DNA of 64,000 bases from Xanthobacter agilis (lineage in GTDB: Bacteria; Pseudomonadota; Alphaproteobacteria; Rhizobiales; Xanthobacteraceae): assembly GCF_021730435.1 (NCBI RefSeq), contig NZ_JABWGX010000012.1:1-64000 (forward strand). The letters are read 5' to 3'. Positions 19,807-63,829 of the stretch are shown here, piece after piece (position 1 is the stretch's first letter; each line of letters begins with the position of its first letter). The notes below the pieces were generated by a model. The model saw only the letters and a program-made list of their open reading frames with translations, made no database searches and was not told where the DNA came from. Position numbers and translations under genes: made by a program.

Positions 19807-21183
19807 TCAGGCGTCGGGTGTGCGGCGCTCGCGCTCGTCCCAACCGCCGATCGGCTCGTCTTCCGGCGTCGGGGATGGGGTCTTGCCGGCGAGGCGCAGG
19901 GTGCGCTCCAGCAGCACCTCGTAGATGGGTTTGCCGCCCAGCCCCTCGGCCACCACGTTGGCGGTGACGCAGGTGATGATGACCGGGACCATCAGGTCAT
20001 AGGCGCCCGTGAGCTCGGCCACCAGCACCATGCCCACCAAGGGCGCGCGGATGGTGGAGGAGAACAGCCCGCCCATGGCCGCCACGCCGAACGCCGCCAT
20101 CGCCCCGGGAGGCAGCGGCAGGGCCAGATCGAGCAGCATGGCGAACAGCACGCCCACCGAAGTGGCAAGGGCCAGGATGGGGGCGAAGATGCCGCCCGGC
20201 ACGCCGGTGGAATAGCTCGCCATGGTCATGACGAAGCGGGTGACCACGATCACCGCCATGGTGAGGAGCGGCAAGGGGTGGGTGGCGAGCGACACCGCCA
20301 GCGCCTCGCCGCCGGTGGTCGCCTCCGGGCGCAGGAACAGGAGCGGGCCGATGGCCGCGCCCACCACCAGCGGCACCAGGTAGGGCGACGTCTTGAGGCC
20401 GATCTTGCGCGACAGCTCGAGCCCGGCCACCACCGCCCAGTTGAACACCACCCCCAGCGCCCCGAGCACCACCCCGAGGCCGGCGAAGGCCGGCATCAGC
20501 CAGAACGGCATCTCTTCCGTCGCCAGGCCCATCATGGGGCCGTTGCCGCCGATGATCTCGGTGACGATGGCGCTCATGACCGAGGCGATGATGACCGCGC
20601 TATAGGTCCGCAGGCCATAGGGAAACTGCCGGCGCGTCTCCTCGATCACGAACAGGATCGCCGCCAGCGGCGCGTTGAAAGCCGCGGCGAGGCCCGCCGC
20701 GCCGCCCGCCGCCAGCAGGCCGCGCCCGTCGCGGATGCCGAGCACGAAGCCGTCGCCCACCGCCTTGGCCAGAGAGGCGCCCATATGGATGGTCGGCCCC
20801 TCGCGGCCCAGCACCAGGCCGGACCCCAGGGACAGCACGCCCGCGACGAACTTCACCGGCAGTATCCGCTTCCAGCGCACCTCCCGCTGGCCTTCGAGCG
20901 CGCCTTCGATTTCCTGCACGCCCGAACCCGCCGCTTCCGGTGCGAAGGCCCGCACCAACGCCACCGACACCAGCACCATGACCGCCGAAACCGCGGCAAG
21001 GACGCCCAGCCGCTCCGGCCCATCGAAATAGGACAGGACCAGCACCGGCCACACCAACGCCATGCTGGACAACATGTGGAACAGCCCGCCGACCGCCCCC
21101 GCCAGCGTGCCCACCAGCACGGCAAGGAAGTAATAAGCGGCATCGCTCATGGCGCGCGGCGTTTCGACGACGGGTTCACCCAT
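19807..21183 (-). CDS. ClC-type voltage-gated chloride channel / H+-Cl- antiporter
   Basis: A 458-residue polytopic membrane protein with the three ClC filter segments: GSGVQEIEG (GSGIP variant), GREGPTIHMG with the gating glutamate, and GGIFAPILA. The second residue pair of the first motif is VQ instead of IP, which occurs in a group of bacterial ClC proteins. The start may be 21183 (MGEPVVE) or the internal Met at 21150 (MSDAAYYFLAV). There is no CBS domain; the ~35-residue C-terminal tail is charged. It is monocistronic and convergent with the deacetylase. Confidence 0.93.
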   Translation of the reverse strand: MGEPVVETPRAMSDAAYYFLAVLVGTLAGAVGGLFHMLSSMALVWPVLVLSYFDGPERLGVLAAVSAVMVLVSVALVRAFAPEAAGSGVQEIEGALEGQREVRWKRILPVKFVAGVLSLGSGLVLGREGPTIHMGASLAKAVGDGFVLGIRDGRGLLAAGGAAGLAAAFNAPLAAILFVIEETRRQFPYGLRTYSAVIIASVMSAIVTEIIGGNGPMMGLATEEMPFWLMPAFAGLGVVLGALGVVFNWAVVAGLELSRKIGLKTSPYLVPLVVGAAIGPLLFLRPEATTGGEALAVSLATHPLPLLTMAVIVVTRFVMTMASYSTGVPGGIFAPILALATSVGVLFAMLLDLALPLPPGAMAAFGVAAMGGLFSSTIRAPLVGMVLVAELTGAYDLMVPVIITCVTANVVAEGLGGKPIYEVLLERTLRLAGKTPSPTPEDEPIGGWDERERRTPDA

Positions 21184-47347: not shown

Positions 47348-48060
47348 CAGGCGATGGCCTTCTTCTGCAGCTCGACCAGATGATCGACACCGCTCCGCGC
47401 GAGGCCGAGCAGGGACAGCAATTCGTCCTGGGTAAAGGGCGTCTTCTCCGCCGTGCCCTGGATCTCGACTATGCCGCCGGAGGCGGTCATGACGAAATTG
47501 GCGTCGGTCTCGGCCACCGAATCCTCGGCATAATCGAGGTCGAGCACCGGCGTGCCCTCGTAGATGCCGCAGGACACCGCCGCCAGATGCTCCTTGAGCG
47601 GCATGTCGCGGATCATGGAGCGGGCGCGCATCCAGCTGAGGCAATCGTGAAGGGCGATCCAGGCCCCAGTGATGGAGGCGGTGCGGGTGCCGCCATCGGC
47701 CTGGATCACGTCGCAATCGATGGTGATCTGCTTCTCGCCCATGGCCACGAGATCGGTCACCGAGCGCAGGGCGCGGCCGATCAGGCGCTGGATCTCCTGG
47801 GTCCGGCCGGAGGGGCGGCCGGTGGTGGATTCGCGCCGGGTGCGATCATGGGTGGCGCGGGGCAGCATGGAATATTCGGCGGTGACCCACCCCCGGCCCT
47901 GGCCCTTCAGCCACGGCGGCAGGCGCTCCTCCAGGGTGGCGGAGACCAGGACATGAGTATCACCGAACTTCACGAGGCAGGAGCCTTCCGCGTGGCGCAT
48001 CACGCCCCGTTCGAATGAAACGGCGCGCATTTCGTTGCTCGCGCGTTTGCTGGGGCGCAT
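47347..48060 (-). CDS. rph: Ribonuclease PH
   Basis: 237 residues from ATG 48060 ([19 protein letters not shown]), which has AAGGAA six bases upstream; an earlier ATG at 48075 is less likely. [25 protein letters not shown] carries the phosphate-binding residues (split motif), and [19 protein letters not shown] follows. It trims tRNA 3' ends phosphorolytically. Divergent from hrcA. Confidence 0.96.
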
Positions 48061-50165: not shown

Positions 50166-50612
50166 TCAGGACCGGTTGAAGACTGTTCCGGTGGAAGGCC
50201 CCCCACCGCTCCGGCGCGGCGCCAGACCGGTCGCGCCATCATCTTGCCGGGCGCCGGCGAGAACGTCAGCGAGGGCGGCGGCAATCATCGTGCCGGTGAA
50301 CGGCTTGGACACACGCGGCCGATCGGCGAACGCCCGAGGCACCGGCTCGGAGCCGGTAAAGGCAGAGCAGAACACGAACGGGACATCCCGCGCCGCCAGC
50401 ACCGCCGCGGCGGGAAACACGCTTTCGCCCTGAAGACTCACATCCAGGAGAGCGGCGTCGAGTCCTTCACCCAAGGCGGCGTCCACCGCCGCCGAAAGGC
50501 TCGCCACGGGCCCCACCACATCGCACCCCAGGGTGCGCAACTCGCCCTCAAGTCCCAGGCCCACCAGGAACTCGTCTTCCACCACGAGCACCCGCAATCC
50601 TGCAAGGTCCAT
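50166..50612 (-). CDS. Single-domain response regulator
   Basis: 148 residues, a CheY-like receiver with no output domain. Acidic pair VVEDEFL (~11-17), phosphoacceptor in AALLDVSLQGE (~58), and KPF lysine (VSKPFTG, ~105). The C-terminal 30 residues are unstructured. ATG 50612 is preferred over the longer frame at 50672. Stand-alone receivers of this size serve in general stress phosphorelays of alphaproteobacteria, and an EcfG-type promoter lies upstream, so a role in modulating that stress pathway is my inference. Partner kinase unknown. Confidence 0.88.
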   Translation of the reverse strand: MDLAGLRVLVVEDEFLVGLGLEGELRTLGCDVVGPVASLSAAVDAALGEGLDAALLDVSLQGESVFPAAAVLAARDVPFVFCSAFTGSEPVPRAFADRPRVSKPFTGTMIAAALADVLAGARQDDGATGLAPRRSGGGPSTGTVFNRS

Positions 50613-50917
50613 CACCTGACGCCTTTTGCGGAGCCTCCGCCACGCAGGGCGCAGCCAAAGACCTCTGTCCACGGCCGGTCATGCCCAGTTCCGAGCGATC
50701 CGCTCCCCTCCGCGATCAGGATCGCACCGGAGGCCGGCATCAGGCTGGGTTCGGCCGTTTTCCCGCTCAACGGGCGGAGCCGCCTAAAGTTCCCTTGGTC
50801 TTTAGACGCAGGCGGCAGCCTCCCGCTCAGCCACCGGGCACGCTCGCGATGGCGGGCGGGCGCGGAAGACAAACGCGCGGAAGACAAGGGGCACACGCTT
50901 CCGTGCACCCCGATCCC
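50613..50917. other. Intergenic region response regulator / efp
   Basis: It contains the EcfG-type promoter of the response regulator and a short direct repeat GCGCGGAAGACAA (two copies near 50858-50887). No gene was recognised; it also forms the 3' region of efp. Confidence 0.45.
50769..50793 (-). promoter_or_regulatory. EcfG-type general stress promoter (toward response regulator)
   Basis: Minus strand: GGAAC (50789-50793), exactly 16 bases, CGTT (50769-50772). Matches the alphaproteobacterial sigma-EcfG consensus. It reads into the response regulator gene through a leader of about 150 nt. Confidence 0.55.
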
Positions 50918-52704: not shown

Positions 52705-53016
52705 TCAGGAGATCTCGAACAGGGTCGAGAATCCGGAGATGTCGAACACCTCGCGGATCTGCGGCTGCAGCGACATCAGCGACAGCCGGCGCTTGGAATT
52801 GCGCATGGCCTTGCCGGCCACCAGCAGGGCGCGCAGGCCCGAGGAGGAGACATAGTCCACCCCGGCGAGATTGATGACGATCGACCCGTCGGTCATCGAG
52901 ACCACATCCATCAGGCTGGTCTCAAACGGCTTGGCATGGGGCGTGTCGAGCCGCCCGGCCACCTTCAGCACCACTTCGCCGTTCGCCTGTTCACGCTCAA
53001 TGTGCATGGACGTCAT
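52705..53016 (-). CDS. STAS-domain anti-sigma factor antagonist
   Basis: About 103 residues. VKVAGRLDTPHAKPFETSL and VDYVSSSGLRALLVAGK are STAS hallmarks; S59, directly before the Gly, is the equivalent of the phosphorylated serine of SpoIIAA. The start at ATG 53016 has GGAG four bases upstream and overlaps the transporter stop by 20 bp. In partner switching the unphosphorylated form sequesters the RsbW-type kinase. The kinase (54979-55428) and a PP2C phosphatase (61772-63829) are in the same locus. Confidence 0.92.
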   Translation of the reverse strand: MTSMHIEREQANGEVVLKVAGRLDTPHAKPFETSLMDVVSMTDGSIVINLAGVDYVSSSGLRALLVAGKAMRNSKRRLSLMSLQPQIREVFDISGFSTLFEIS

Positions 53017-54625
53017 TGCGCTCCACGGATGTTTCTTGATCTTCCGGCTTATCGCCATTCGCGGCGGGGCGCAACGCCACCGCGGTCCGGCGAATCAGCC
53101 ACATGGCGCGCTCGAAGAGGCTGGTGGCGAGCAGCAGCCGGCGCGCATCCTCGCCGCTGCCGATGGACGACCCCACCAGGCTGCGGCGGATGCGGTTGAG
53201 CAGTTCGCTGCGGTCTGCGGTGAGGGCGGCGATCACATCATAGTCGTCGGCGCTCTCCGCATCCGCCAGCGACAGCACGATCACCCGCAGCGATTCGGAC
53301 AGGTTGAACGCGAGCTGCGGCGGCACGTCGTAGCTTTCCACCACCTCGGCGAAATCGTGCAGCGTGTCCTGCAACAGGCAGATCATCTCCAGCCACCCCT
53401 GCTGCTCCAGGGCGATGTCGAGGCTCTCCCGCTCCGGCGCGCGGCCGATGAGCTCGGTCAGGAAGCCTTCCGTCGTGCGCGCGATGGCCGCCGCGCCGCG
53501 CCAGAGCGCCAGCCGCTCGCTGGCCCCAGCGCCCTCGGTGACGTCGAGGTCCGGCAAGAGCGTGGGCAAGAGCTGCACCAGCCTGCGGATTTCCTTGTCC
53601 GAAAGGTCGAGGGCGGTGGCCGGCGCGTCCACCGCCCGGTCGTGAATGTAGCGCGGCTGGGAAGCGCCATCCTCCAGGGTGGGCGGGCTGAGGCGCAGGG
53701 CAATGGCCTCCGTCAGCGACCGGCCGAAGGCGACCGGCACGGCGCCCGCCAGTTGCAGCGCCAGGAACAGCAGCGAGAGCGACAGCGCGGCCTGCCCGCC
53801 GCCCAGCCCGGCCAGCTCCCGCGCCGGATCCGCTCCCATCCACCCCGCCGCCAGCCACACCGCGAACACCAGGGTGCAGCCGACGCCCTTCACGAGAATG
53901 TGAACATAGCAGAGCTGTCGCCCGGTGCCCTTCAGCCCCCCTGCGGCGACCAGCGTCGCGAGCCCGGAGCCGAGATTTGCCCCGAGCACCACGAAGAACG
54001 CGTCATCGAGCCCCATCACCGCGGACTGAAGCAGCGCGAGCACAAGAATGGTGGGTGTTGAAGACGACTGGCTGAGCGCCGCCGCCGCCAGACCCGCGGC
54101 AAACCCCAGCAGCGGCGTCAGCCCGCCATCAAACAGGCTCGCCAGCACCGCCGGATCGATCGCGCGCGGCCCCTGCTTGATGAAATCGAGGCCCAGCAGC
54201 GCCAACGCCAGGCCCAGGCCCACCCCCATCCACTCCCGCCAAGCCGGCCGCCGATCCAGCCGGAGCTGAATGCCGAACCCCACCAGCGCCAGCAGGTACA
54301 AAATCACGAGGCGGAAATCGACAGCAGCCACGAACACCAGGGCGGCTGTGCCTACATTGCCGCCCGCCACCACCGGGATCGCATCCCGAACGCTCAGCAC
54401 GCCGCCGCGCACCAGATTGCCGCAGATGACCGCCACCGCATTGCTGGATTGGGTGGCCGCGCCGGCGAGGCTCCCCGACAGGAGACCGGTCAAAGGCGAG
54501 CGGGTCGCCCCCCGCAACAGCCGCCGCACCCCCCGGCCGGTGGCCTGCTGCAGGTGGGACGACAACAGCTTGAGGCCGACGAACAGCAGGCCAAGTCCCG
54601 CCAGGATTTCCGCCAGGATCGTCAT
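52997..54625 (-). CDS. Na+/phosphate cotransporter-like membrane protein with PhoU-like domain
   Basis: About 542 residues. Eight to nine membrane segments with the two inverted QSS repeats of NptA/PNaS transporters (GAATQSSNAVAV and AALSQSSSTPTIL). The C-terminal ~200 residues are soluble helices of PhoU type (EIRRLVQLLPTLLPDL... LLNRIRRSLVGSS). It may take up phosphate or act as sensor or regulator. It overlaps the STAS gene by 20 bp, an unusual coupling of a transporter with a partner-switching component. Start chosen at MTILAEILAGLGLLFVG; the ribosome site is weak. Confidence 0.87.
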   Translation of the reverse strand: MTILAEILAGLGLLFVGLKLLSSHLQQATGRGVRRLLRGATRSPLTGLLSGSLAGAATQSSNAVAVICGNLVRGGVLSVRDAIPVVAGGNVGTAALVFVAAVDFRLVILYLLALVGFGIQLRLDRRPAWREWMGVGLGLALALLGLDFIKQGPRAIDPAVLASLFDGGLTPLLGFAAGLAAAALSQSSSTPTILVLALLQSAVMGLDDAFFVVLGANLGSGLATLVAAGGLKGTGRQLCYVHILVKGVGCTLVFAVWLAAGWMGADPARELAGLGGGQAALSLSLLFLALQLAGAVPVAFGRSLTEAIALRLSPPTLEDGASQPRYIHDRAVDAPATALDLSDKEIRRLVQLLPTLLPDLDVTEGAGASERLALWRGAAAIARTTEGFLTELIGRAPERESLDIALEQQGWLEMICLLQDTLHDFAEVVESYDVPPQLAFNLSESLRVIVLSLADAESADDYDVIAALTADRSELLNRIRRSLVGSSIGSGEDARRLLLATSLFERAMWLIRRTAVALRPAANGDKPEDQETSVERNDVHAH

Positions 54626-54978
54626 GACCGCGTCATCGGCACCCTCGGCCCCTGTAAGAGCGCCCGCGCGGGGATGCGACCGGCCATCCGGCAGCCCGGA
54701 CACGACGGCACCCCCGCCGGCGCGAGCACCCGCTCGGAGCGGGGCGCGCGATGCGGCGCCGGGAATGGGAAGGCGCGCTTCGTAGCACTGTCATATGTCA
54801 GTGATGCGACGGCCGAAGTGACCCCTCCGGCGCGCAAAACCGCCCCCTGCGCCATGCAGTAACAACGCCGCATGCGATGCGACAGCGCCGTGATCTCCGC
54901 TCAGAACGAAACCTCCCGAGACCGGACATCGTCGAGCGCCCCATGACGAGCGGGCCGAGCGCCGGCCACCGGCGGCGT
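54626..54978. other. Intergenic region between transporter and RsbW-like gene
   Basis: No gene recognised. It holds CACTGTCATATGTCAGTG (54786-54803), an 18-bp near-perfect palindrome with one T-T mismatch, 160 bp upstream of the transporter start. Possible operator; otherwise nothing notable. Confidence 0.45.
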
Positions 54979-55428
54979 CTAGCGGCTCCGGGGCACGGCG
55001 ACCATGGTCAGGTGGTTCTCCTCCCCCTGCCGGCGGTAGGTGAGGCTTTCCAGGAAATGCCGCATCAATTGTACGCCGTGGCCGCCCACCTTGGCCGCGT
55101 CGATGGTGTCCACCGCCTCCGGCTCCGCAAGGGTGGTGGGATCGAAAGCCGCGCCGTTGTCGATCAGCTCCACCGCCACCCGCCCTTCCGCCATGCGGTG
55201 CACCTCAAGGCGAATCACCGGGTCATGCGCGATGCCGTCGAAACCATAGGAAATGACATTGGTCAGCGCCTCCTCGACGCTGAGCTCCAGCCCGAAGCGC
55301 ATGGCCATGGGCCACTCCTCCCGCTCGGCGAGATCGGCGAGCCAGGATGTCACCTGGGAGATCGACTCGATGTCCGCGCCAACCCGCAGCGCAGAAATCA
55401 GGGTACCGGCGGCGGGGGGCGTCATCAT
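54979..55428 (-). CDS. RsbW-like anti-sigma factor / serine kinase (HATPase_c_2)
   Basis: About 149 residues. GHKL ATPase motifs: N box LSVEEALTNVISYGFDG, G1 LIDNGAAFDPTTL, and G2 GGHGVQLMRHFLESLTYRR. It should phosphorylate the STAS protein and bind an output partner. In classic systems that is a sigma factor, but none is in the window. Start uncertain (ATG 55428/55425 or GTG 55464). It is read in the same direction as the STAS and transporter genes. Confidence 0.9.
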   Translation of the reverse strand: MMTPPAAGTLISALRVGADIESISQVTSWLADLAEREEWPMAMRFGLELSVEEALTNVISYGFDGIAHDPVIRLEVHRMAEGRVAVELIDNGAAFDPTTLAEPEAVDTIDAAKVGGHGVQLMRHFLESLTYRRQGEENHLTMVAVPRSR

Positions 55429-55618
55429 GGGCACGGCGCTAGGTGGTCGCGCCGCGACAGGCACGCTGTGCCCGCCCCAGGCGCGCGGTATCTGGCGCAG
55501 TATCCGATGCCGACGACAAGGTCTCGATCTTCATTTCCGAGGCACTTTCGGACTGGGGCCACCCCGCTTGGACGCGCGCCATGACTTGGCGTAGCGCCGC
55601 CCCTCAAAGGTCAATCTA

Positions 55619-55660
55619 GAGCATTTCCTGGCCGCGTTGAATCGCAAAAATGCCCTAGGG
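55619..55660. repeat. GAGCATTT-type imperfect inverted repeat
   Basis: AGAGCATTTCCTGGCC... and ...CGCAAAAATGCCCTAG form GCATTT/AAATGC arms around a short loop. It resembles the dispersed repeat at 41254-41320 and the partial one at 21237-21284. It sits between the RsbW-like and GNAT genes. Confidence 0.5.
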
Positions 55661-55694
55661 TCTTGCTTTACCGCGCCTTCTTCAGCCCGGCCGT

Positions 55695-56372
55695 TCAGCC
55701 GCGCGCGAACAGCGCGGGGGCGAAGACCACGCCGGGCTCGCCCCCCTTCAGGCGGGTGCGCGCATAGCCGCGCCAGCCCTGGGCGAACAGGGCCTGCTGG
55801 CGGGCCACGTCGCGCGGATCCACCACCACCCCGGCCTCGGGATCGTAGGTCGAGCCGTCGCGCAGCATCACATAACGGGCATAGCCGCCGAAGAAGAACT
55901 CGATACCGACGATGGGAAATCCACCCGACAGGAGATTCGACCAGCTCGGCGCATTCACCGGCGCGGCGGTGGAGAACAGCACCATGTGCTGAGGCGCGAG
56001 GGCCACCCGCTCCGCGATCACCACGCGTTGCAGACCTAGGCCACGGTAGTCGGGATGCACCGACGCCCCCGCCAGGCGCCCCACGGCGGTCTCCGCGGGC
56101 AGCTTCAGCAGGCGATGCGGCCCGTCCTCGGGCGTGTGATCGTGCTGTAAGATGCCATAGGCGACGAGGCTCTCGCCATCGAACACCCCCACCGAGCGCC
56201 CCCGCCCGGCCAGAACGCTCTGAAAATAAGCGCGGTTTTCGGGCTTCACCACTTCGGGCCTCGCCACCGGGCCGATGGCGAGGCGGTGCAGCGCTTCCAC
56301 TGCATCGAGATCATCCGGCCCGAGCTCTCGGGTGCGGATCTGGCTGGCCCTATGGGCGGCGCTGAGTGCCAT
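55695..56372 (-). CDS. GNAT-like acyltransferase in the signalling locus
   Basis: 225 residues. IRTRELGPDDLDAVEALHRLAIG at the start and the acetyl-CoA motif LAGASVHPDYRGLGLQRVVIAERVAL (V-x3-Y-R-G-L-G-L) indicate a GNAT fold. The rest (GGFPIVGIEFFFGGYARYVMLRDG) is specific to a group I cannot name. It starts 2 bp from the stop of the binding-protein gene, so the two are cotranscribed. It could modify a signalling partner or the sensed ligand. No direct evidence. Confidence 0.8.
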   Translation of the reverse strand: MALSAAHRASQIRTRELGPDDLDAVEALHRLAIGPVARPEVVKPENRAYFQSVLAGRGRSVGVFDGESLVAYGILQHDHTPEDGPHRLLKLPAETAVGRLAGASVHPDYRGLGLQRVVIAERVALAPQHMVLFSTAAPVNAPSWSNLLSGGFPIVGIEFFFGGYARYVMLRDGSTYDPEAGVVVDPRDVARQQALFAQGWRGYARTRLKGGEPGVVFAPALFARG

Positions 56373-56374
56373 GG

Positions 56375-57385
56375 TCAGGTGATCACTTCCGCATAGTTGA
56401 GCATCGCGATGGGCGGATAAACGCCCAGCTGCCGCGCCACCGTCATGTTGATGATGAGCGCGAAACGCTTGAGGGTCTCGATGGGAATGGTCTTGGGCGG
56501 CTGATGTTCCACCAGGATCTCGACCGCCTTGGAGGCGGCGAGCTGGCCGACCGAGTAATAGCGGCTGACCAGCCCCACCAGCCCCAGCCCCTCCCGCAGG
56601 AAGAACTCGGTGGCCCCGAAGGTGGGCAGCTTCACCTGAAGGGCGGTCGGCCCCACCCGGTTGAAGATGGAGGCGAGGAAGGTGTCGGCCGGCAGATAGA
56701 GCCAGTCCGCGCCCTTCTCCTTCAGGTCGCGCACGAAGCCTTCCACCCCGTCGCCGACGGCGCGGGTGCCCTGCATGGCCAGCGGCTGGGCCAGCACCTC
56801 GACCCCGATGCCCTGGCAGAAGGCGCGCATCTCGTCGATGATGGCGAGCGAATTGCTTTCATTGGGCGAATAGATCACCCCCACCTTCTGGAACGGGCGA
56901 TAACTCTGCATGGCCCGCATCTGCACGTCGGTGGGCACCACATGCACGGCACCGGTGACGTTGCGCCCGGATGAGGCCAGCGATGGCGCGATCTTCACCT
57001 GCACCGGCGCCGCCACCAGGGCGAACACCACCGGAATGTCCCGCACGAAGGGCGCATCGGGCGGCGCATCATAGGGCCCCACCACCGCCAGTGTGTTGGG
57101 TGTGCCGTAGGTATAGATGAGGTCCGGCTTGAAGCTGGGCAGCGCCTCCTCAAGGATGGGCTTCACCCGCGCGGCATCGCGCTCCACGTCCCGGGTCAGG
57201 AACTCGACGTTGATCTCGTTGGCGGCGAAATAGTCGCGGAAACCGCGTTCCACGTCGGTGTCGCCGCGGAAGGTGAGCATCAGGACACGGAACGGGCGGG
57301 CGGGATCCTCGGCGCGCGCCGCGCGCCCGAGCAGGCCTGCGGCTCCGGCTCCGAGCCCGAGGGAAAGAAGCGTACGACGGTCCAT
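56375..57385 (-). CDS. ABC-type substrate-binding protein (PF04392-like)
   Basis: 336 residues from ATG 57385 with AGGGAG upstream. A twin-arginine-like or Sec signal (DRRTLLSLGLGAGAAGLLGRAARA) precedes a type I periplasmic fold: FRVLMLTFRGDTDVERGFRDYF, DLIYTYGTPNTLAVV, RNVTGAVHVVPTDVQ, VGVIYSPNESNSLAI. No ABC permease or ATPase is adjacent. The stop of the MFS-sensor gene overlaps the ATG (TGATG). A binding protein without a transporter, in an operon with sensors, suggests ligand capture for signalling. Confidence 0.87.
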   Translation of the reverse strand: MDRRTLLSLGLGAGAAGLLGRAARAEDPARPFRVLMLTFRGDTDVERGFRDYFAANEINVEFLTRDVERDAARVKPILEEALPSFKPDLIYTYGTPNTLAVVGPYDAPPDAPFVRDIPVVFALVAAPVQVKIAPSLASSGRNVTGAVHVVPTDVQMRAMQSYRPFQKVGVIYSPNESNSLAIIDEMRAFCQGIGVEVLAQPLAMQGTRAVGDGVEGFVRDLKEKGADWLYLPADTFLASIFNRVGPTALQVKLPTFGATEFFLREGLGLVGLVSRYYSVGQLAASKAVEILVEHQPPKTIPIETLKRFALIINMTVARQLGVYPPIAMLNYAEVIT

Positions 57386-59370
57386 CACACGGGACTCCCT
57401 TCGGAGGAGGCCGCGCGCGTGGCGCGGCGTGAACCAGACGGCGCGGAAAGTCGGTGTCCGGATAGCGCAAAAGCCACCGCTCCCGCCACAACCACCACGC
57501 CCATGGCCGCGGTTGTAACCGAAAAACCCACCGCCGCCAGCAGAATGCCCGCCGCCGCCGGCCCGGCGGCATTGCCGGACCGCTCCACCAGCCGGAACAG
57601 GCCGAGCACCCCGGCGGAGCTGAAGCCCGGAAGCGCCGCCATGTCCGCCACCAGCGCCGATTGCGAGGCGATCGACAGTGCCTGCCCGAGGCCCAGCATC
57701 GCCAGGGCGAACACGATCAGCGCCACCGACGGATAGAGCGGCACCGCCAGCGCGCCGAGACCGCAGACCAGCCCGCCCGCCACCACAAACGCCGCGCGGG
57801 CCTGCAGGCGGTCCGCCAGCGCCGCGAACAGGGGCACCGCCAGCACCATCAGCAGCGGATAGATCATCTGGAAACGGCCGATAGCCGCGGCCGAATAGCC
57901 CTGGTGCTGCAGCTCCAGCGGCACCAGCAGCAGGCAGAGCGCCGCGAACAGCAGCTTGGCCGGAAAGGCGCAGCCCAGCAGCAACGCCATCAGGCGCGGC
58001 GCCCGCGTCGCCTGGAGCAGGTCCCCCACCCCCACCGCGACATGGGCCGCGCGACGCGGCGCCCGCGGCACCACCATCAGCGCCACCCCGAGCGACACCA
58101 CTGCCAGCACCGCCGACGCCCCGAGCGCCGCCGACGGCCCCAGCCGATCGGCGATGACACCGCCGATGGGCGGCCCGCACAGGCAGGCCACCATGATCGC
58201 CCGGACGAACACCGCCAGGGCCGCGCTGCGTCCGCCACCGTGCGAGTGGTCCACCACATGGCCCTGAGCCGAGACGAACACCAGCGCATAGCCGATGCCC
58301 GACACCACGCGGGCGCCCAGGAACAAAAGATAATGCTGGCTCAGCGCCGACAAAGCATAGCCCGCCGCCGCCAGCAGCGCGCCGAGCACGAAGCCGTGCC
58401 GCCGCCCGAGGCGCTCCGAGAGCCCCGCGAACGGAATCTGGCACAGGGCCACCACCGCCATGAAGGCGACGATGGGCAGGCTCGCCGCCGTGTCGGGACC
58501 GATCCCCCCGCCCGCCGGCGCCAGCGATTGGGCCAGGCGCGGCAGAAACGGGCGCGTCAATTCCTCGGCCAGCATGAACAGGAACAGCGCCGGACGGATC
58601 GCCCCCGCGAGCGCGCTCTCGCCGGGCGTGACATCGCCGATGCCGGTGCGCGCGGCCAGCATCTCAAGACGCGTCACCAGCGCATGGTCGCCCCGAGCGC
58701 GAGCCGCGGCGCACGCCGCCGCGTGGCGGGCGCCCAACCGCGCCACCTGCGCATCGACCGGCGCGAGCAACCGCTCCGCGCCGGTGCCCGTGCAACTGCT
58801 CCATTGGGAAAGGAGGCCGCGCGCCAGGCCGCGCACGCGCTGTTCCACCGCAGTCATCGCCGCGATGCCCCGCGTGCCCACCACCAGCGCCACCAGCTCC
58901 AGAGCCACCAGCAGGGCCACCACGCCGATGAAGGCCACATCCACCAGAACCGCCGCCACCTGGGCCCACACCACCGAAGGATCGATGGTGATCGCGATCT
59001 CGCCCAACCCGCGGCCGTCCCGCATCACCGGCACCCGCACCACGGTCGGCGCGTCATCGTCCGCCGCGATACCCGACCGGACCCCGCCGCCACCGGCAAG
59101 CGTCAGGTCGATCTGGGCAAATTCGGCGTTGGCCGCCCGCAGTTCGTCGAAATAGCTCCGCACCCCCACCAGACGGTCGAGCGGGATGCCGGCCGCATCC
59201 GCCCGCTCCACCAGGGCCGCGGCGGAACGGCCCACGCTCTCAGCCTTCTCGAGAATCGCCGGCACGATGGTGCGCTCCGCCGCCCGGTGCGCGCCCCAGG
59301 CGATGAGCGCGAGCGCCGCGCACAGGATGAGCGCGATGGCGACGGTGATGCCTGCCCTGAGCCCGATCAT
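57385..59370 (-). CDS. MFS transporter fused to an N-terminal periplasmic sensor module
   Basis: 661 residues. Helix 1 (~7-27), a ~100-residue periplasmic sensor (VERADAAGIPLDRLVGVRSYFDEL; IDLTLAGGGGVRSG), helix 2 (~140-165), a linker with a lone TAVEQRVRGLARGLL segment, then a 12-helix MFS domain from ~245 with motif A as GLSERLGRRHGF. The sensor part resembles the three small neighbouring proteins. The combination predicts a transporter-coupled receptor. The start ATG 59370 overlaps the preceding gene by 4 bp. What it moves or senses is unknown. Confidence 0.85.
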   Translation of the reverse strand: MIGLRAGITVAIALILCAALALIAWGAHRAAERTIVPAILEKAESVGRSAAALVERADAAGIPLDRLVGVRSYFDELRAANAEFAQIDLTLAGGGGVRSGIAADDDAPTVVRVPVMRDGRGLGEIAITIDPSVVWAQVAAVLVDVAFIGVVALLVALELVALVVGTRGIAAMTAVEQRVRGLARGLLSQWSSCTGTGAERLLAPVDAQVARLGARHAAACAAARARGDHALVTRLEMLAARTGIGDVTPGESALAGAIRPALFLFMLAEELTRPFLPRLAQSLAPAGGGIGPDTAASLPIVAFMAVVALCQIPFAGLSERLGRRHGFVLGALLAAAGYALSALSQHYLLFLGARVVSGIGYALVFVSAQGHVVDHSHGGGRSAALAVFVRAIMVACLCGPPIGGVIADRLGPSAALGASAVLAVVSLGVALMVVPRAPRRAAHVAVGVGDLLQATRAPRLMALLLGCAFPAKLLFAALCLLLVPLELQHQGYSAAAIGRFQMIYPLLMVLAVPLFAALADRLQARAAFVVAGGLVCGLGALAVPLYPSVALIVFALAMLGLGQALSIASQSALVADMAALPGFSSAGVLGLFRLVERSGNAAGPAAAGILLAAVGFSVTTAAMGVVVVAGAVAFALSGHRLSAPSGSRRATRAASSEGSPV

Positions 59371-60044
59371 CGCCCGTCCTTCCGCGCGGTGCCGCCGCCG
59401 TCCGTCGTACCATCGTCGAGAAAAGCGTGGGCGGCGTCCGCTTCCGCCAGCGCCGAACGCGCGGCGACCGGCCAATGGGCGGGATCGGCGGCCCGCCGCG
59501 CCGCCCGCCGCAGCGACATGGCAAGCAGAAGGCCCACCACGATGGTGGCGCAGCAGGCCCCGATAAGCGCCGGCCAGGTGACCTGCCACAGATCCGCGCG
59601 CAGCGCCGCGCCGCCGGCGTCGAGCACCTGCGGATCATACCGCATCACCACCTGTCCGATGGGCGCGTCGAGGTCGTTGCGCGCGGTGCGACGCACGGTG
59701 CTGGCGGGCGCCCGCTCGAACGACGCGCCGATGCGGCCGGCATCACTCGAAAACACCACCACCCCGCGCTCGTCGACGAGATCGATGGACCGCAGCGAGG
59801 GCTCGATGCGTGCCTCCCGCTCCAGCACGCCCGCAAGGGTAGCCTGGGCCGGCAGGGCGATGCCGAGAGAGGCCGCGCGCTCCACCACGCCGGCCAGCCG
59901 CTCGGCGGTGACGGCGAATCGCGATTCCACCGCGGAGCGATATGCATTCACCAGCGTAACCGAGGAGAAATAGGCCCCGAAGGCGACGCACGCGGCCGCG
60001 ATCAACGCGAACACGCCGATAAGCCACAGCGCTGTGCGCGTCAT
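59367..60044 (-). CDS. Stand-alone membrane sensor module A
   Basis: 225 residues with two membrane helices (~7-28 and ~160-182) around a periplasmic domain, and a short cytoplasmic tail without HAMP, kinase or cyclase. VERAASLGIALPAQATLAGVL and SIDLVDERGVVVFSSDAGRIG correspond to segments in the other three modules of this locus. The ATG follows TTGGAGGACCTCCCGC. Stop and next start overlap (ATGA). Known dCache/sCache-like receptors normally carry an output domain, so this one probably acts by contact with another membrane protein. Confidence 0.78.
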   Translation of the reverse strand: MTRTALWLIGVFALIAAACVAFGAYFSSVTLVNAYRSAVESRFAVTAERLAGVVERAASLGIALPAQATLAGVLEREARIEPSLRSIDLVDERGVVVFSSDAGRIGASFERAPASTVRRTARNDLDAPIGQVVMRYDPQVLDAGGAALRADLWQVTWPALIGACCATIVVGLLLAMSLRRAARRAADPAHWPVAARSALAEADAAHAFLDDGTTDGGGTARKDGR

Positions 60045-60165
60045 GCGGGAGGTCCTCCAACGGGAGCGCGCGGAACCATGTCAGGCTCGCATGAAGATGA
60101 AAAGCATCCTGAGATTGCAGGTTTTTTTGAAGCGTGCGCGGTTTTTTTCTGGTTTGACCGCGCCC

Positions 60166-60206
60166 GGACGTTTAACGTCCCGGCCGTCGATCGAGCAAAG
60201 TATAAT
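60166..60206 (+). promoter_or_regulatory. Divergent control region: palindrome and TATAAT close to the start codon
   Basis: GGACGTTTAACGTCC (60166-60180) is a perfect 7+1+7 inverted repeat. A consensus TATAAT at 60201-60206 ends 2 bp before the ATG of sensor B. If used as -10 box, transcription would start inside the gene or give a leaderless mRNA. The palindrome overlaps the expected -35 zone and is a candidate operator for this locus. Confidence 0.4.
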
Positions 60207-60208
60207 CC

Positions 60209-60955
60209 ATGACGTTCGTGAGCCGGCTGGCATTGGTCGTGATCTCTGCGGTGATCGCTACGATGGTGGCGGTCGCCTTGATCTGCTTCACCGCAAGCGA
60301 GCGCGTCAACGTCGAGATCGAGCGGGCGCGGGTGGCCAATCTACTCAACACGCTGCGCACCGCCACTGAGGCTAATCTCTCCATCGGCCTCACGCTCGAT
60401 CAGATCTCGCCACTCCAGGAGCGAATCGAGCGTGAGAAGGCCGGGGATTCCGCCGTGCTCGCCATCGACATCTTCAACGCCACCGGCCGCACCATCTATT
60501 CCACCGATCGCAGCCTGATCGGCGAAGCCGTTCCCTCCGTGTGGGTCGAACGCTCGGCCAATGCCGGCATCTGGCAGATGACCGAGCGGGGCGACACGGT
60601 GTTCGGCACCCATTTCGAGAACGACCTCGGCCTCGCCGGCGGCATTTCGGTGACCACATCCGACCGGGCCCGCGTCGCCCGCGCCGAATCACTCGGACTG
60701 AATCTTCTGGGCATCGCCCTCGCCCTCATCGCCGGCGGCGGCGTGACCGCGGGCCTTGCGGCCAGCGCCTTCGCCTATTTGATGTCACGCCCCTTCGATC
60801 AGGTCGCCCGCGTCCTGTCGGCCGAAGCGCTCGGCCCCGCGGCCGAGGGCCCCCTGCCGCAGATCGCCCAGGAGGCGCGGCATAGCTGGATCGAAGCGGA
60901 GGCGCGGGTGGATCGCGGCCTCAGCCAGCTCGGAGCGCTCGACGATGCGAACTGA
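60209..60955 (+). CDS. Stand-alone membrane sensor module B
   Basis: 248 residues. Two membrane helices (~7-29 and ~165-190) flank a periplasmic domain with AIDIFNATGRTIYSTDRSLIGEAV, the clear counterpart of SIDLVDERGVVVFSSDAGRIG in module A. A short cytoplasmic region after the second helix (RPFDQVARVLSAEAL) hints at a HAMP-like start but no full domain. No Shine-Dalgarno sequence is seen before ATG 60209. It overlaps the next gene by 11 bp. Start could be slightly further downstream. Confidence 0.78.
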   Translation: MTFVSRLALVVISAVIATMVAVALICFTASERVNVEIERARVANLLNTLRTATEANLSIGLTLDQISPLQERIEREKAGDSAVLAIDIFNATGRTIYSTDRSLIGEAVPSVWVERSANAGIWQMTERGDTVFGTHFENDLGLAGGISVTTSDRARVARAESLGLNLLGIALALIAGGGVTAGLAASAFAYLMSRPFDQVARVLSAEALGPAAEGPLPQIAQEARHSWIEAEARVDRGLSQLGALDDAN

Positions 60956-61772
60956 TCCCGGGCGGGGGCGCCTCGTCACCGGCCTCGCGGCCTTCGTGGT
61001 CAGCCTCCTGGTGGGCGGGATCAGTGCTGCGGTCCTGTCCACCAGCTACCGCGCCCGGGTCGAGGACGGCGCCCGCCGCGACGCCCTAGTGATCGGCACC
61101 TCGGTGGCGCAGATGCTTGCGCAGCAGTTCGAGAAGGCGGGGCGCTTCGGCATTCCCCTGAAGCTCCTGCCGGGGGTCGAGGCCCACCTGACCGCAACCC
61201 TCGCCGGAACCCCCGGCATCGCCCAGATCATCCTGCGCGGACCGGATGGGCGGGAAATCCGCAGCGCGACCGGGGACGGTCCGGGCATCGATTCCGCCAG
61301 CGCGGCCGTGGTGGTGAACGGCATCACCGTGGCCTCCGTGGAGGTCGCCACCAACCCGGCGGCATTGTCCAGCGCATTCGCGGCGGTGGGCGTGAAGGCG
61401 GCGGTGGCGGTGGTCATCTTCGCCGCCTTCGCCGCGCTGGCTGCGGGGCTGACCGTCGGCCTCGCCCTGGATCGCAGCACGGCGCGCCTCACCGCCGCGC
61501 TGCGTCGGACCGCCGATGGCGATTTCGAGCCGGACGCCGGCAACGGACGCGCGGGCCGGGCCCATGGCGCGGTGGGACGGGCCTTTCGCGCGCTCGCCCA
61601 CGGCAACCGGCATGTTCGCGAGCGGCGCGCGGTGTTCGACGCCTATGCGGAGGAGTTGCTGGAGGTGGACTTCGACGGCAGCGTGCGGCCCGATGTGGAG
61701 CGGCTGCGCCGGGAGGTGCTCGGCCGCCCACAGGATCCGCATGAGCCCCCTCACACGGCACGGGGCGCCTGA
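60945..61772 (+). CDS. Stand-alone membrane sensor module C
   Basis: 275 residues with helices at ~10-33 and ~145-170. The periplasmic part has EKAGRFGIPLKLLPGVEAHL, nearly the same motif as GIPLDRLVGVRSYF in the MFS fusion. A cytoplasmic stretch of ~100 residues follows (LDRSTARLTAALRRTADGDFEPDAG...; HAMP-like) with an acidic tail. Stop overlaps the phosphatase ATG by one base (TGATG), so tight coupling with the phosphatase is likely. No catalytic domain is present. Confidence 0.78.
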   Translation: MRTDPGRGRLVTGLAAFVVSLLVGGISAAVLSTSYRARVEDGARRDALVIGTSVAQMLAQQFEKAGRFGIPLKLLPGVEAHLTATLAGTPGIAQIILRGPDGREIRSATGDGPGIDSASAAVVVNGITVASVEVATNPAALSSAFAAVGVKAAVAVVIFAAFAALAAGLTVGLALDRSTARLTAALRRTADGDFEPDAGNGRAGRAHGAVGRAFRALAHGNRHVRERRAVFDAYAEELLEVDFDGSVRPDVERLRREVLGRPQDPHEPPHTARGA

Positions 61773-63829
61773 TGCTGCTGCGCACCCGCATCACCCTCAT
61801 CGTTGCTCTTGGTTTCATCGTCCTGATGCTCGGCATCTGGGGCGCCACCACATTGCGCGACCGCGTGGCGGACACCCGCGAGGGGGAAGTGGCCATCGCC
61901 GGCCAGAGCGTGCTGTGGCGGGAAATCGTGGCCTTTCAGACCTCGAACCTCTCCCGGATCCTTGAACGGGTGGACGGATCCACCGCCTTCCGCATCGCGC
62001 TCGGCTTTTCCGACCGACCCGGCATCGCCGCCGCGCTCAAGGAAGCCGGTGTCGACGTCAACGACGCCGACACCGCGTTCGAGGTGGTGGGCGCCGACCG
62101 GGAGCTGGTGTTCAGCGCCGGCGGCACCAGCCACAACCGCTCGATCCTCGACGCCGGCAGCCTCGACCACGCGCTGAAGGGCGAGCCGATCAGCGGCCTG
62201 CGGCAGGTCGCGGCGGACCGCATCATCGTGCTCGCCACCCGCACCGTGGTGCTGCCCGGCAAGGGCACAGCGGTCATCGTGCTCGGGCGGGATGCCAGCA
62301 TCGGCCTGGACCGGTTCGCCCGCGGCATCGGCGCCTCGACCACCCTCGTCACCTTGCGCGGGCGCGTTGCGGCGAGCACCGACATGCGGCTGTGGGACCG
62401 GGCGAAGCTCGATATCACCCCCCGCCGCGCCGAGGCCGCGCGGATCGCCCTCGACGGCCACAGCTACAACGTCACCTCCATTCCGGTGGAAGGTATCGGC
62501 GGCGGCAGCATCGGTGCCCTGGTCAGTCTCAGCGACACCACCGAGACGCTCCAGGCCTCCAGCTTCATCCGCAAGGCCGCCATCGCCGGTGCCATCCTCA
62601 TCGTGGTGCTGGGCGTGATCGGCCTCAATGTGTTCCTCTGGTACTCGTTTCGCACGCTGGAGGAGGCCATTGACGTGCTCCAGGCGCTCTCGCGCGGCGA
62701 CACCTCGGTGACGGTGGAACACACCGGAGCCGCCGACGAGATCGGACGCATCGCCTCGGCCGTGGTGGCTCTGCGTGGCAACGTGCAGGCCCTGGCCGAG
62801 AGTCGGCGCCAGCGCGAGCGCATTCGTCGCCGCCAAGGCGTGGTGATCTCCAGTGAATTGAAGGCGCTGGCCGATTCCATCGACCCCACCGACCGCGAGG
62901 AGGTGCTCGCCCTGCTCGCCAACAGCGCGCGCCTGGAACAGGACGACGAGCTGAAGCGCGTGGCGCGGGTGCTGCATGACCTCTCACGGCGCATCGTGGA
63001 GCAGCACACCCGCCTGTCGTCCATGGTGGTGGAGCTGCGCGAGGCCCTCGTCACCAAGACCAAGCTCGCCGGCCTTCAGCAGGAGCTGGAGATCGCCCGG
63101 CAGGTGCAGCTCGCCATCCTGCCCAAGGAATTCCCGCCCGATTCCCGCGTGGCGGTGCACGGCCAGATGACGCCCGCCCGCGAGGTGGGCGGCGACTTCT
63201 ACGACTATTTCATGGTGGACGAGCGCACGCTCGGCTTCGTGGTCGCCGACGTTTCGGGAAAGGGCGTGCCGGCGGCCCTGTTCATGGCCATCTCGCGCAC
63301 CCTGCTGCGCTCCACCGCCTTGTTCGAACGGTCTCCGTCCGGCTGCGTGCGGCGGCTCAACGATCTGCTGGCGGTGGAAAACGAACAGATGCTGTTCGTC
63401 ACCCTGGTCTATGGCGTGCTGGACCTCGACACCGGACGGGTGACCTATGTGAACGCCGGGCACAACCTGCCCTACCGCATCCGCCGCGACGGCGAGGTGA
63501 GCACGGTGCCCAGCACCAAGGGCATGGCGGTCGCCGTGATGGAGGGCTTCGTCTACATGGAAAGCAGCTTCGACCTCACGCCGGGCGACACGCTGTTCCT
63601 GTACACGGACGGCGTGACCGAAGCCTTCGACGTGGACGAGAACGCCTATGGGGAGCGCCGCCTGGAAACCCTCTTGGCCACCGGCGCCAGCGATTGGTCG
63701 GTGCCGGAGCTGTCCGAGCGGGTCCTCGCCTCGGTCCACATCTTCGAGCGGGGCGCACCGCAGGCCGACGATATCACCTGCCTGACGCTCCGCTATTTCG
63801 GCGACAAAAACCCCAAGCGCATCGGCTGA
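61772..63829 (+). CDS. Membrane-bound SpoIIE/RsbU-type PP2C serine phosphatase with sensor and HAMP
   Basis: 685 residues. Helix at ~8-26, a ~240-residue periplasmic sensor, second helix at ~270-290, HAMP (~290-345), a coiled-coil linker (~345-450), and the SpoIIE PP2C domain from ~440: LEIARQVQLAILPKEFP, REVGGDFYDYF, VVADVSGKGVPAALFM, YVNAGHNLPY, LFLYTDGVTEAFD, ADDITCLTLRY. The metal-binding aspartates are intact. It should dephosphorylate the STAS protein of this locus, making it capture the RsbW-like kinase. Fourth component of a complete partner switch. Confidence 0.93.
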   Translation: MLLRTRITLIVALGFIVLMLGIWGATTLRDRVADTREGEVAIAGQSVLWREIVAFQTSNLSRILERVDGSTAFRIALGFSDRPGIAAALKEAGVDVNDADTAFEVVGADRELVFSAGGTSHNRSILDAGSLDHALKGEPISGLRQVAADRIIVLATRTVVLPGKGTAVIVLGRDASIGLDRFARGIGASTTLVTLRGRVAASTDMRLWDRAKLDITPRRAEAARIALDGHSYNVTSIPVEGIGGGSIGALVSLSDTTETLQASSFIRKAAIAGAILIVVLGVIGLNVFLWYSFRTLEEAIDVLQALSRGDTSVTVEHTGAADEIGRIASAVVALRGNVQALAESRRQRERIRRRQGVVISSELKALADSIDPTDREEVLALLANSARLEQDDELKRVARVLHDLSRRIVEQHTRLSSMVVELREALVTKTKLAGLQQELEIARQVQLAILPKEFPPDSRVAVHGQMTPAREVGGDFYDYFMVDERTLGFVVADVSGKGVPAALFMAISRTLLRSTALFERSPSGCVRRLNDLLAVENEQMLFVTLVYGVLDLDTGRVTYVNAGHNLPYRIRRDGEVSTVPSTKGMAVAVMEGFVYMESSFDLTPGDTLFLYTDGVTEAFDVDENAYGERRLETLLATGASDWSVPELSERVLASVHIFERGAPQADDITCLTLRYFGDKNPKRIG

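Follow-up and report, generated by a model that had tools for sequence, protein, structure and literature searches.

A probable btr-type multi-sensor partner-switching cassette beside a Na/Pi symporter gene in Xanthobacter agilis

What does a complete phosphorylation switch control when it is encoded among sensors and transporters, with neither a secretion system nor a sigma factor beside it? This question is raised by a locus of Xanthobacter agilis (genome of 4.8 Mb) that occupies positions 52705-63829 of a 64,000-nucleotide stretch of contig NZ_JABWGX010000012.1, hereafter called the window. The locus contains ten genes in two divergent operons, separated in the sequence by an intergenic region of 164 bp (60045-60208). 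The leftward operon (minus strand) encodes a STAS antagonist, a Na/Pi symporter-family protein, an RsbW-like kinase, a GNAT-like protein, a binding protein, a sensor protein of the major facilitator superfamily (MFS) and the small sensor SenA, whereas the divergent rightward operon (plus strand) encodes the sensors SenB and SenC and a SpoIIE-family phosphatase. The reading favored here, held at a probability of roughly two in three, is that the locus is a multi-sensor partner-switching cassette of the type known from the btr locus of Bordetella, with a proposed sensing side, a switch and outputs that are exchanged between lineages. We regard the locus as a real and conserved switch that is uncoupled from secretion. 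The kind of system is known; its sensor design, its spread and the exchange of its outputs appear to be new as far as the open-licence literature shows, in which only Bordetella papers on this cassette were found.

The switch and its distribution

The three switch proteins can each be recognized by family matches and conserved residues. The STAS antagonist (RsbV-like; 52705-53016, minus strand) matches PF01740 with 58.3 bits and TIGR00377 with 71.8 bits (cut-off 53.45). The serine of its VSSSGLR motif, which by analogy we take to be the phospho-acceptor, is invariant in all 81 rows of the STAS alignment, which cover 71 loci, some of them twice. In the RsbW-like serine kinase (HATPase_c_2; 54979-55464, minus strand; PF13581, 71.6 bits), the glutamate and asparagine that are presumably the N-box residues are invariant in 71/71 rows, and this kinase is the sole clear RsbW of its own genome (71.8 bits; the next best match has 37 bits). 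The SpoIIE-family, RsbU-like phosphatase (61772-63829, plus strand; PF07228, 168.7 bits) is composed of a Cache-like sensor, a HAMP-like segment (PF00672, 22.9 bits, just under the cut-off of 25) and a PP2C domain. Its GGDF, ADVSGKG, TDG and DD columns are invariant in 10/10 rows; we take the aspartates of these columns to be the PP2C metal ligands. In the structural model, the periplasmic part is built of two strand-rich halves, which in our reading are Cache-like, followed by a helical linker and a PP2C domain that is close to those of RssB, SiaA and Rv1364c in structure comparison. As judged from their sequences, the STAS protein, the kinase and the phosphatase have the features expected of an RsbU/V/W-type partner switch. 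A first-pass annotation of the window had treated the genes as one unit, and the complete set of kinase, STAS protein and phosphatase together with extracytoplasmic sensors bears this out.

The unit is kept intact within the family. SenA orthologues were found at E<=7e-51 in 17/119 sampled family genomes including the own one, that is, in 16 of the 118 others, and 13 of these 16 carry all ten genes in identical order and orientation. The remaining three loci are cut by contig ends and do not contradict the order (L035, L041, and L047 with L048; L numbers denote fetched loci and G numbers genomes in this analysis). One of the 13, from a metagenomic relative, has a split SpoIIE frame, the gene consisting of two overlapping reading frames (L044, 5496-7432). 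An eighteenth family genome (G005) gave a weak sensor match only, with none of the other genes within 20 kb. The nearest named binding protein, from Xanthobacter sp. NM-59, is 90% identical. Two kinds of additional gene occur between the GNAT and kinase genes: an alanine racemase gene in L039, L040, L043 and L045, and a second STAS gene in four loci of the same genus (L031, 14460-14810, as well as L032, L036 and L042). This second STAS gene, which the window does not have, keeps the conserved serine in a divergent context (ASIG).

Overlaps are found between STAS and Na/Pi (20 bp), binding protein and MFS (1 bp), MFS and SenA (4 bp), SenB and SenC (11 bp), and SenC and SpoIIE (1 bp); the gap between GNAT and binding protein is 2 bp, and the RsbW gene is flanked by 275 and 230 bp. 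The gene list and overlaps of the first-pass annotation were reproduced by Pfam and TIGR scans and by the coordinates, with one exception: the PhoU-like tail that it had assigned to the Na/Pi protein found no Pfam PhoU match at E<=10, either in the window's own tail or in four homologous tails.

Beyond the family, profile searches that scored up to eight candidates per genome at the order level and up to six at the phylum level place the cassette in at least 20/297 and at least 4/397 genomes, respectively, own genome included. Distant loci were fetched from 7 of the 22 matched genomes other than the own, namely all three phylum matches and four of the stronger order matches, the weak order matches being left out. 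These seven loci belong to other families or orders and, in one case, to another class; all seven have the binding protein, MFS, RsbW and SpoIIE genes, and six of the seven have STAS and, likewise, GNAT. A broader set comprises 80 related loci, the best 80 of 97 relatives in a binding-protein alignment scan, which span Xanthobacter, Azorhizobium, Aquabacter, Chelatococcus, Mesorhizobium, Jiella, Acuticoccus, Amorphus, Comamonadaceae, Oxalobacteraceae and others. Counts over this set use profiles built from the same loci and are uncorrected for contig ends, and several of the fetched loci represent the same stretch; the counts are 69 for any sensor, 69 for MFS, 66 for GNAT, 51 for SpoIIE, 42 for STAS, 41 for RsbW, 20 for Na/Pi and 18 for alanine racemase. 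Genes were picked by codon-position GC, which lets some shadow open reading frames (ORFs) pass, and some names were given by eye; an all-against-all clustering of ORFs was swamped by the shadow ORFs of GC-rich DNA and was not used.

The link between phosphatase and binding protein was also followed in 399 genomes of one betaproteobacterial family, with up to five binding-protein and up to two SpoIIE candidates scored per genome. The binding proteins of the module form a distinct subfamily there (24 matches in 23 genomes at 302-456 bits, the next best at 132). At E<=1e-110 the profile of SpoIIE finds a match in 15 genomes (full-length in 12), and all 15 genomes are among the 23 with a module-type binding protein (p about 8e-22, with kinship between genomes ignored). 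The two genes lie within 6 kb of each other in 14 of the 15 cases; in the fragmented genome G838 they are on separate contigs. The core recurs over two classes, the alpha- and betaproteobacteria, and the family keeps its order; a scattering of the genes in relatives, which the first-pass annotation had named as fatal to its proposal, is not what is seen.

Known partner switches and the output in the window

The closest known system by gene type is the btr locus. As listed in the table of a review (PMC7498569), this locus encodes BtrV (STAS), BtrW (kinase), Alr, BtrO (MFS), BtrU (SpoIIE) and BtrN (ABC), and further BtrM (gamma-glutamylcysteine synthetase), BtrA, a secreted anti-sigma factor, and the extracytoplasmic function (ECF) sigma factor BtrS. 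According to the same review, BtrU, BtrV and BtrW govern type III secretion through a mechanism described as unknown, and for the MFS, ABC and racemase genes the role is given as "unknown" (PMC7498569); a second paper places the btr locus next to the type III secretion system (T3SS) genes of Bordetella (PMC3372540). The window shares with btr the STAS, kinase, SpoIIE, MFS and ABC-type proteins in one locus, a likeness drawn by gene type from the review table. Relatives add to it: an alanine racemase gene is present in the 18 of 80 loci counted above (for instance in Azorhizobium), a BtrM-like GCS2 gene adjoins the cassette in L099, and T3SS genes occur beside other cassettes, two of which also have an ECF sigma factor. 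Unlike btr, the window's locus is flanked by neither T3SS genes nor an ECF sigma factor gene nor an alanine racemase gene, and none of its genes was recognized as coding for a secreted anti-sigma factor. Conversely, it has a Na/Pi symporter, a GNAT gene and separate two-transmembrane (two-TM) sensors, whereas the review's table lists no sensor genes for btr. The first-pass annotation had called the pathway uncommon, but it is no isolated case: Bordetella is known to have the same set of gene types.

Other partner switches are more remote. With the RsbU-RsbV-RsbW type (sigma B of Bacillus; RbaY/V/W of Rhodobacter) the window shares a PP2C phosphatase, a STAS protein with the conserved serine and an HATPase_c_2 kinase, but it adds extracytoplasmic sensors, a binding protein and a sensor-MFS, and has no adjacent sigma factor. 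Adjacency of a sigma factor is not required in all known partner-switch members. The locus tag of RbaY, a response-regulator PP2C, is well separated from the rbaV and rbaW tags (PMC3999984). A membrane PP2C of the SiaA kind recalls SiaABCD of Pseudomonas aeruginosa, and the SiaA PP2C is among the fold matches; however, the NF038263 score is 49 bits against a SiaA cut-off of 700, and there is no diguanylate cyclase among the ten genes. Finally, some SpoIIE-less relatives adjoin a PpkA-like kinase (Pkinase, dCache, HAMP) and a PppA-like PP2C, as in the PpkA/PppA threonine pathway of the type VI secretion system (T6SS), but that pathway uses another kinase fold and no STAS protein, and it is not the form of the window.

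If the locus is a btr-type cassette, it would work as follows. An extracytoplasmic solute would be monitored by two paired sensor units, one made of SenA and the sensor-MFS and the other of SenB and SenC, and by the exported binding protein. Together they would set the activity of the membrane PP2C phosphatase, a protein equipped with a Cache-like sensor of its own; joint gating of the phosphatase had also been proposed by the first-pass annotation. The conserved serine of the STAS protein would be phosphorylated by the RsbW-like kinase and the phosphate removed by the phosphatase, and the choice of binding partner for the STAS protein (and for the kinase) would then depend on the phosphorylation state. 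Across proteobacteria, the same sensors and switch core would be plugged into varied outputs, such as transporters, type III secretion or a kinase-fused nucleotide cyclase. Should the same gene set be such a portable sensor-and-switch cassette, present also in harmless soil bacteria without T3SS, the MFS and ABC genes of btr would gain a likely role in signal input, and the site of output attachment (STAS protein or kinase) would become testable.

Several points weigh against this reading. The GNAT match lies below the Pfam cut-off; the link to btr, including that to BtrO, BtrN and BtrU, was drawn from gene content in the review table and is provisional to that extent; and the tie between symporter and STAS protein considered below is one of gene order, which co-transcription would also explain. 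In addition, 10 of the 51 SpoIIE loci have neither STAS nor RsbW detected within the stretch. SpoIIE is missing from 29 of the 80 binding-protein loci, several of them on short contigs, which makes sensors and switch separable.

Which output, then, would the switch serve in the window's lineage, where neither a secretion system nor a sigma factor is adjacent? The candidate target encoded within the locus is the Na/Pi symporter-family protein (52997-54703, minus strand; PF02690, 123.4 bits; NF037997), which ends in a tail of about 240 aa without a Pfam family. In the 20 Xanthobacteraceae-type loci examined, window included, the STAS gene lies directly downstream of the Na/Pi gene and on the same strand in 17/17 loci that hold both, and Na/Pi genes also stand beside the cassette in L074, L100, L113, L156 and L242. 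Because of this order and this recurrence, the symporter is ranked first among the outputs, as a tentative choice for the likeliest target in the lineage of the window. A more ambitious version is doubtful: that the cassette, known to date only as the btr genes of Bordetella, is widespread in proteobacteria with an output swapped repeatedly, and that in Xanthobacteraceae the dephosphorylated STAS protein acts directly on the co-translated symporter, as a post-translational switch without a sigma factor. In this doubtful version, paired Cache sensors, MFS "transceptors" and the solute-binding protein would drive the switch, and the outputs would comprise T3SS, kinase-fused cyclase, peptide export, Na/Pi permeases and purine-type permeases that end in an RsbW-like tail. 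As a separate observation, a small membrane protein (identified by eye) adjoins the Na/Pi gene in L074 (4186-4896), where it has no Pfam family above cut-off, and in L156 (3419-4081).

An unlinked regulator is an equally tentative candidate for the output. Here the switch would act, as in classical RsbUVW, on a sigma factor or regulator encoded elsewhere, the symporter being merely co-regulated because the sensed solute matters for the balance of ions or phosphate. Sigma factors or regulators are the targets of most STAS/RsbW switches described so far (PMC8256260), and RbaV/W/Y of Rhodobacter capsulatus is an alphaproteobacterial system (PMC3999984). ECF sigma genes stand beside the cassette in L151 and L239, and the own genome has seven Sigma70_r2 matches elsewhere. 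However, none of the seven is in the locus, the only one on the same contig belongs to a 750-aa frame at a distance of 65 kb, and the recurring neighbors in other lineages are cyclase, transporter and secretion genes. None of the ten proteins matches the PhyR, NepR or EcfG families (no search aimed at PhyR was made), and the genome's one NepR match is below cut-off (22 of 25.7 bits) and on another contig (G000:C63, 212130-212198).

The first-pass annotation had stated that the output is missing from the window. This agrees with the absence of any obvious signaling output by eye, both in the window from position 48000 on and in the 16 kb past the phosphatase; it would not hold if the Na/Pi symporter is the output. 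The genome has no T3SS either: no hrcV match exceeds the cut-off of 692 bits in the own genome or in 16 family genomes. Matches below this cut-off, at 551-590 bits (one, fragmentary, at 343), include 15 in the own and family genomes and were set aside as flagellar FlhA. By eye, an ORF near the locus (50166-50672) resembles a single-domain response regulator, and a similar ORF occupies the equivalent place in L082.

Sensors, transporter and binding protein

The sensor side is built on one repeated plan. SenA (59367-60044, minus strand; small), SenB (60209-60955, plus strand; single-Cache/PAS-like) and SenC (60945-61772, plus strand) are two-TM sensors for which no Pfam family was found above cut-off, and MFS1 (57385-59370, minus strand; PF07690, 107.2 bits) carries a membrane-anchored sensor domain at its N-terminus. 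Profile comparison pairs SenA with its homologue SenB (hhalign probability 99.1, E 1.6e-18) and SenC with the homologous MFS1 N-terminus (99.1, E 1.4e-18); the other pairs among the four reach probabilities of 94.6-97.1, and the sensor of the phosphatase itself shows no clear relationship to them. The AlphaFold model of SenB, with a predicted local distance difference test score (pLDDT) of 81.7, is a single Cache/PAS-like domain anchored by two helices. Its Foldseek matches are mostly extracytoplasmic PAS/Cache sensor domains, including the solved ones of WalK/YycG, DcuS, CitA and Tlp3.

SenA and MFS1 form a single protein in 13/80 loci by profile matches, strongly so in L099 and L100 and weakly in L160. 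Taken with the pairwise homologies of SenA to SenB and of SenC to the MFS1 N-terminus, these fusions show a paired-sensor design; the cassette contains one plan, a small sensor plus a sensor-MFS, in two copies. In two Rhizobiales-type relatives SenC continues into a degenerate half that resembles the MFS domain (E 6e-9 and 3e-10), so that SenC of the window is a shortened form; the two proteins of this sort that were scanned have no Pfam family above cut-off. The Comamonadaceae version of SenC has equally many hydrophobic segments, with no detectable MFS match. The first-pass annotation had described three sensors without output domain; this is accurate for the window and is in part a feature of the lineage, since SenA-MFS fusions and SenC proteins with an MFS-like domain occur elsewhere.

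The binding protein (56375-57385, minus strand) belongs to the ABC_sub_bind family (PF04392, 88.6 bits) and, by eye, has a twin-arginine-like signal; no ABC permease gene for it is present in the locus. Beside it, the GNAT-like acetyltransferase (55695-56372, minus strand) is a weak call, with 18.5 bits to PF00583 under a cut-off of 20.7. The pairing of MFS1, which keeps its full MFS domain, with a protein of a solute-binding family could suggest an uptake route, with the switch merely tuning its expression and the sensors detecting the transported solute. This is improbable: binding proteins of the PF04392 family are not, to our knowledge, usual partners of MFS proteins, MFS1 has a sensor domain and forms one protein with SenA in the loci just described, and the second MFS-like unit, formed by SenC and its MFS-like half, is degenerate, as would be expected of a sensor rather than a transporter.

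Genes beside related cassettes

The neighbors of related cassettes vary by lineage. T3SS genes stand beside 9/80 loci, all of which have SpoIIE, and further cases are L237-L239. Pfam supports the T3SS seed proteins (FliP, Bac_export_1 and 2, FHIPEP, needle, T3SS ATPase), most of these families also covering flagella; secretins in L148, L151, L153 and L154 and a needle gene in L160 add to this support. The source genome of L076 (G583) is the sole one with hrcV above cut-off, on the same contig as the module, and the ECF sigma genes of L151 and L239 mentioned above are next to T3SS-linked cassettes. In 6/80 loci, as well as in L077 and L078, the kinase is fused to adenylate/guanylate cyclase sequence or has it as a neighbor; six fusion proteins match both the RsbW and the cyclase Pfam domains, the cyclase match of L106 being slightly below cut-off. 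One such kinase-cyclase fusion is from Chelatococcus. A purine-type permease (PF00860, NCS2) is present in 4/80 loci and adjoins kinase and STAS genes in L104, L156 and also L225. Its tail aligns with the RsbW profile (hhalign probability 85, E 6e-6, 5 sequences), which is suggestive only of an RsbW-like tail. The kinase-cyclase fusions and this permease tail give direct clues that partner switches of this group act on enzymes and transporters besides sigma factors. Peptide-export ABC genes are found beside L112 and L115. In L112, these genes are preceded by one for a protein (19821-20405) that has no Pfam family and in which a stretch resembling a GG-type leader was noted by eye.

A quick tree of the binding proteins requires at least five changes for T3SS linkage and six for Na/Pi, some of them due to truncated contigs and unsure long branches, and places the window's group next to a mostly betaproteobacterial group with members linked to Na/Pi, permease and T3SS genes. 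The first-pass annotation had named sigma factors and diguanylate cyclases as the usual outputs of partner switches, which is too restrictive for this group: relatives are tied to T3SS, nucleotide cyclase and transporters, and the SpoIIE-less subtype to T6SS.

This SpoIIE-less form has T6SS, PpkA-like or PppA-like genes (names given by analogy) beside 13/29 loci and T3SS genes beside none. Since the own genome also encodes TssC, on another contig and 13 kb from its only other SpoIIE-like match (G000:C22, 31481-46055), the cassette could conceivably control the genome's own T6SS. We consider this quite improbable: T6SS-type seeds have no match among the 51 SpoIIE-containing loci, and T6SS structural genes were seen in just 4 of the 13, while 3 others have a PpkA-like kinase and 6, all of one clade, a PppA-like PP2C alone. 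As an obligatory output, T6SS is ruled out by three genomes of the same genus (G041, G073 and G094) in which the cassette is present and no TssC match was found. Still less probable is a chance neighborhood of two unrelated operons, a STAS/RsbW/NaPi unit and a sensor/phosphatase unit: the STAS and RsbW genes do lie 6-9 kb from the SpoIIE gene and some distant loci retain just the sensor, MFS and binding-protein part, but the family keeps order and divergent orientation, the fetched stretch also includes STAS or RsbW in 41/51 SpoIIE loci, and the phosphatase needs a substrate, the genome's sole clear RsbW being at this locus.

A few loci show further neighbors or partial gene sets. In L130 (3960-7070) and L131 (3823-7065), the gene directly upstream of the SpoIIE-less cassette encodes a protein longer than 1000 aa with a secretin domain; L130 comes from a metagenome bin titled Bordetella parapertussis, a label that may be wrong. 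In Xanthobacter tagetidis, where phosphatase, switch and sensor genes were not found by profiles within 10 kb, the binding protein, GNAT and alanine racemase genes are kept (L095, 10001-12800). In Chelatococcus, the cassette is followed by SpoVR-, YeaH- and YeaG-like stress genes, named by eye (L110, 14959-19786).

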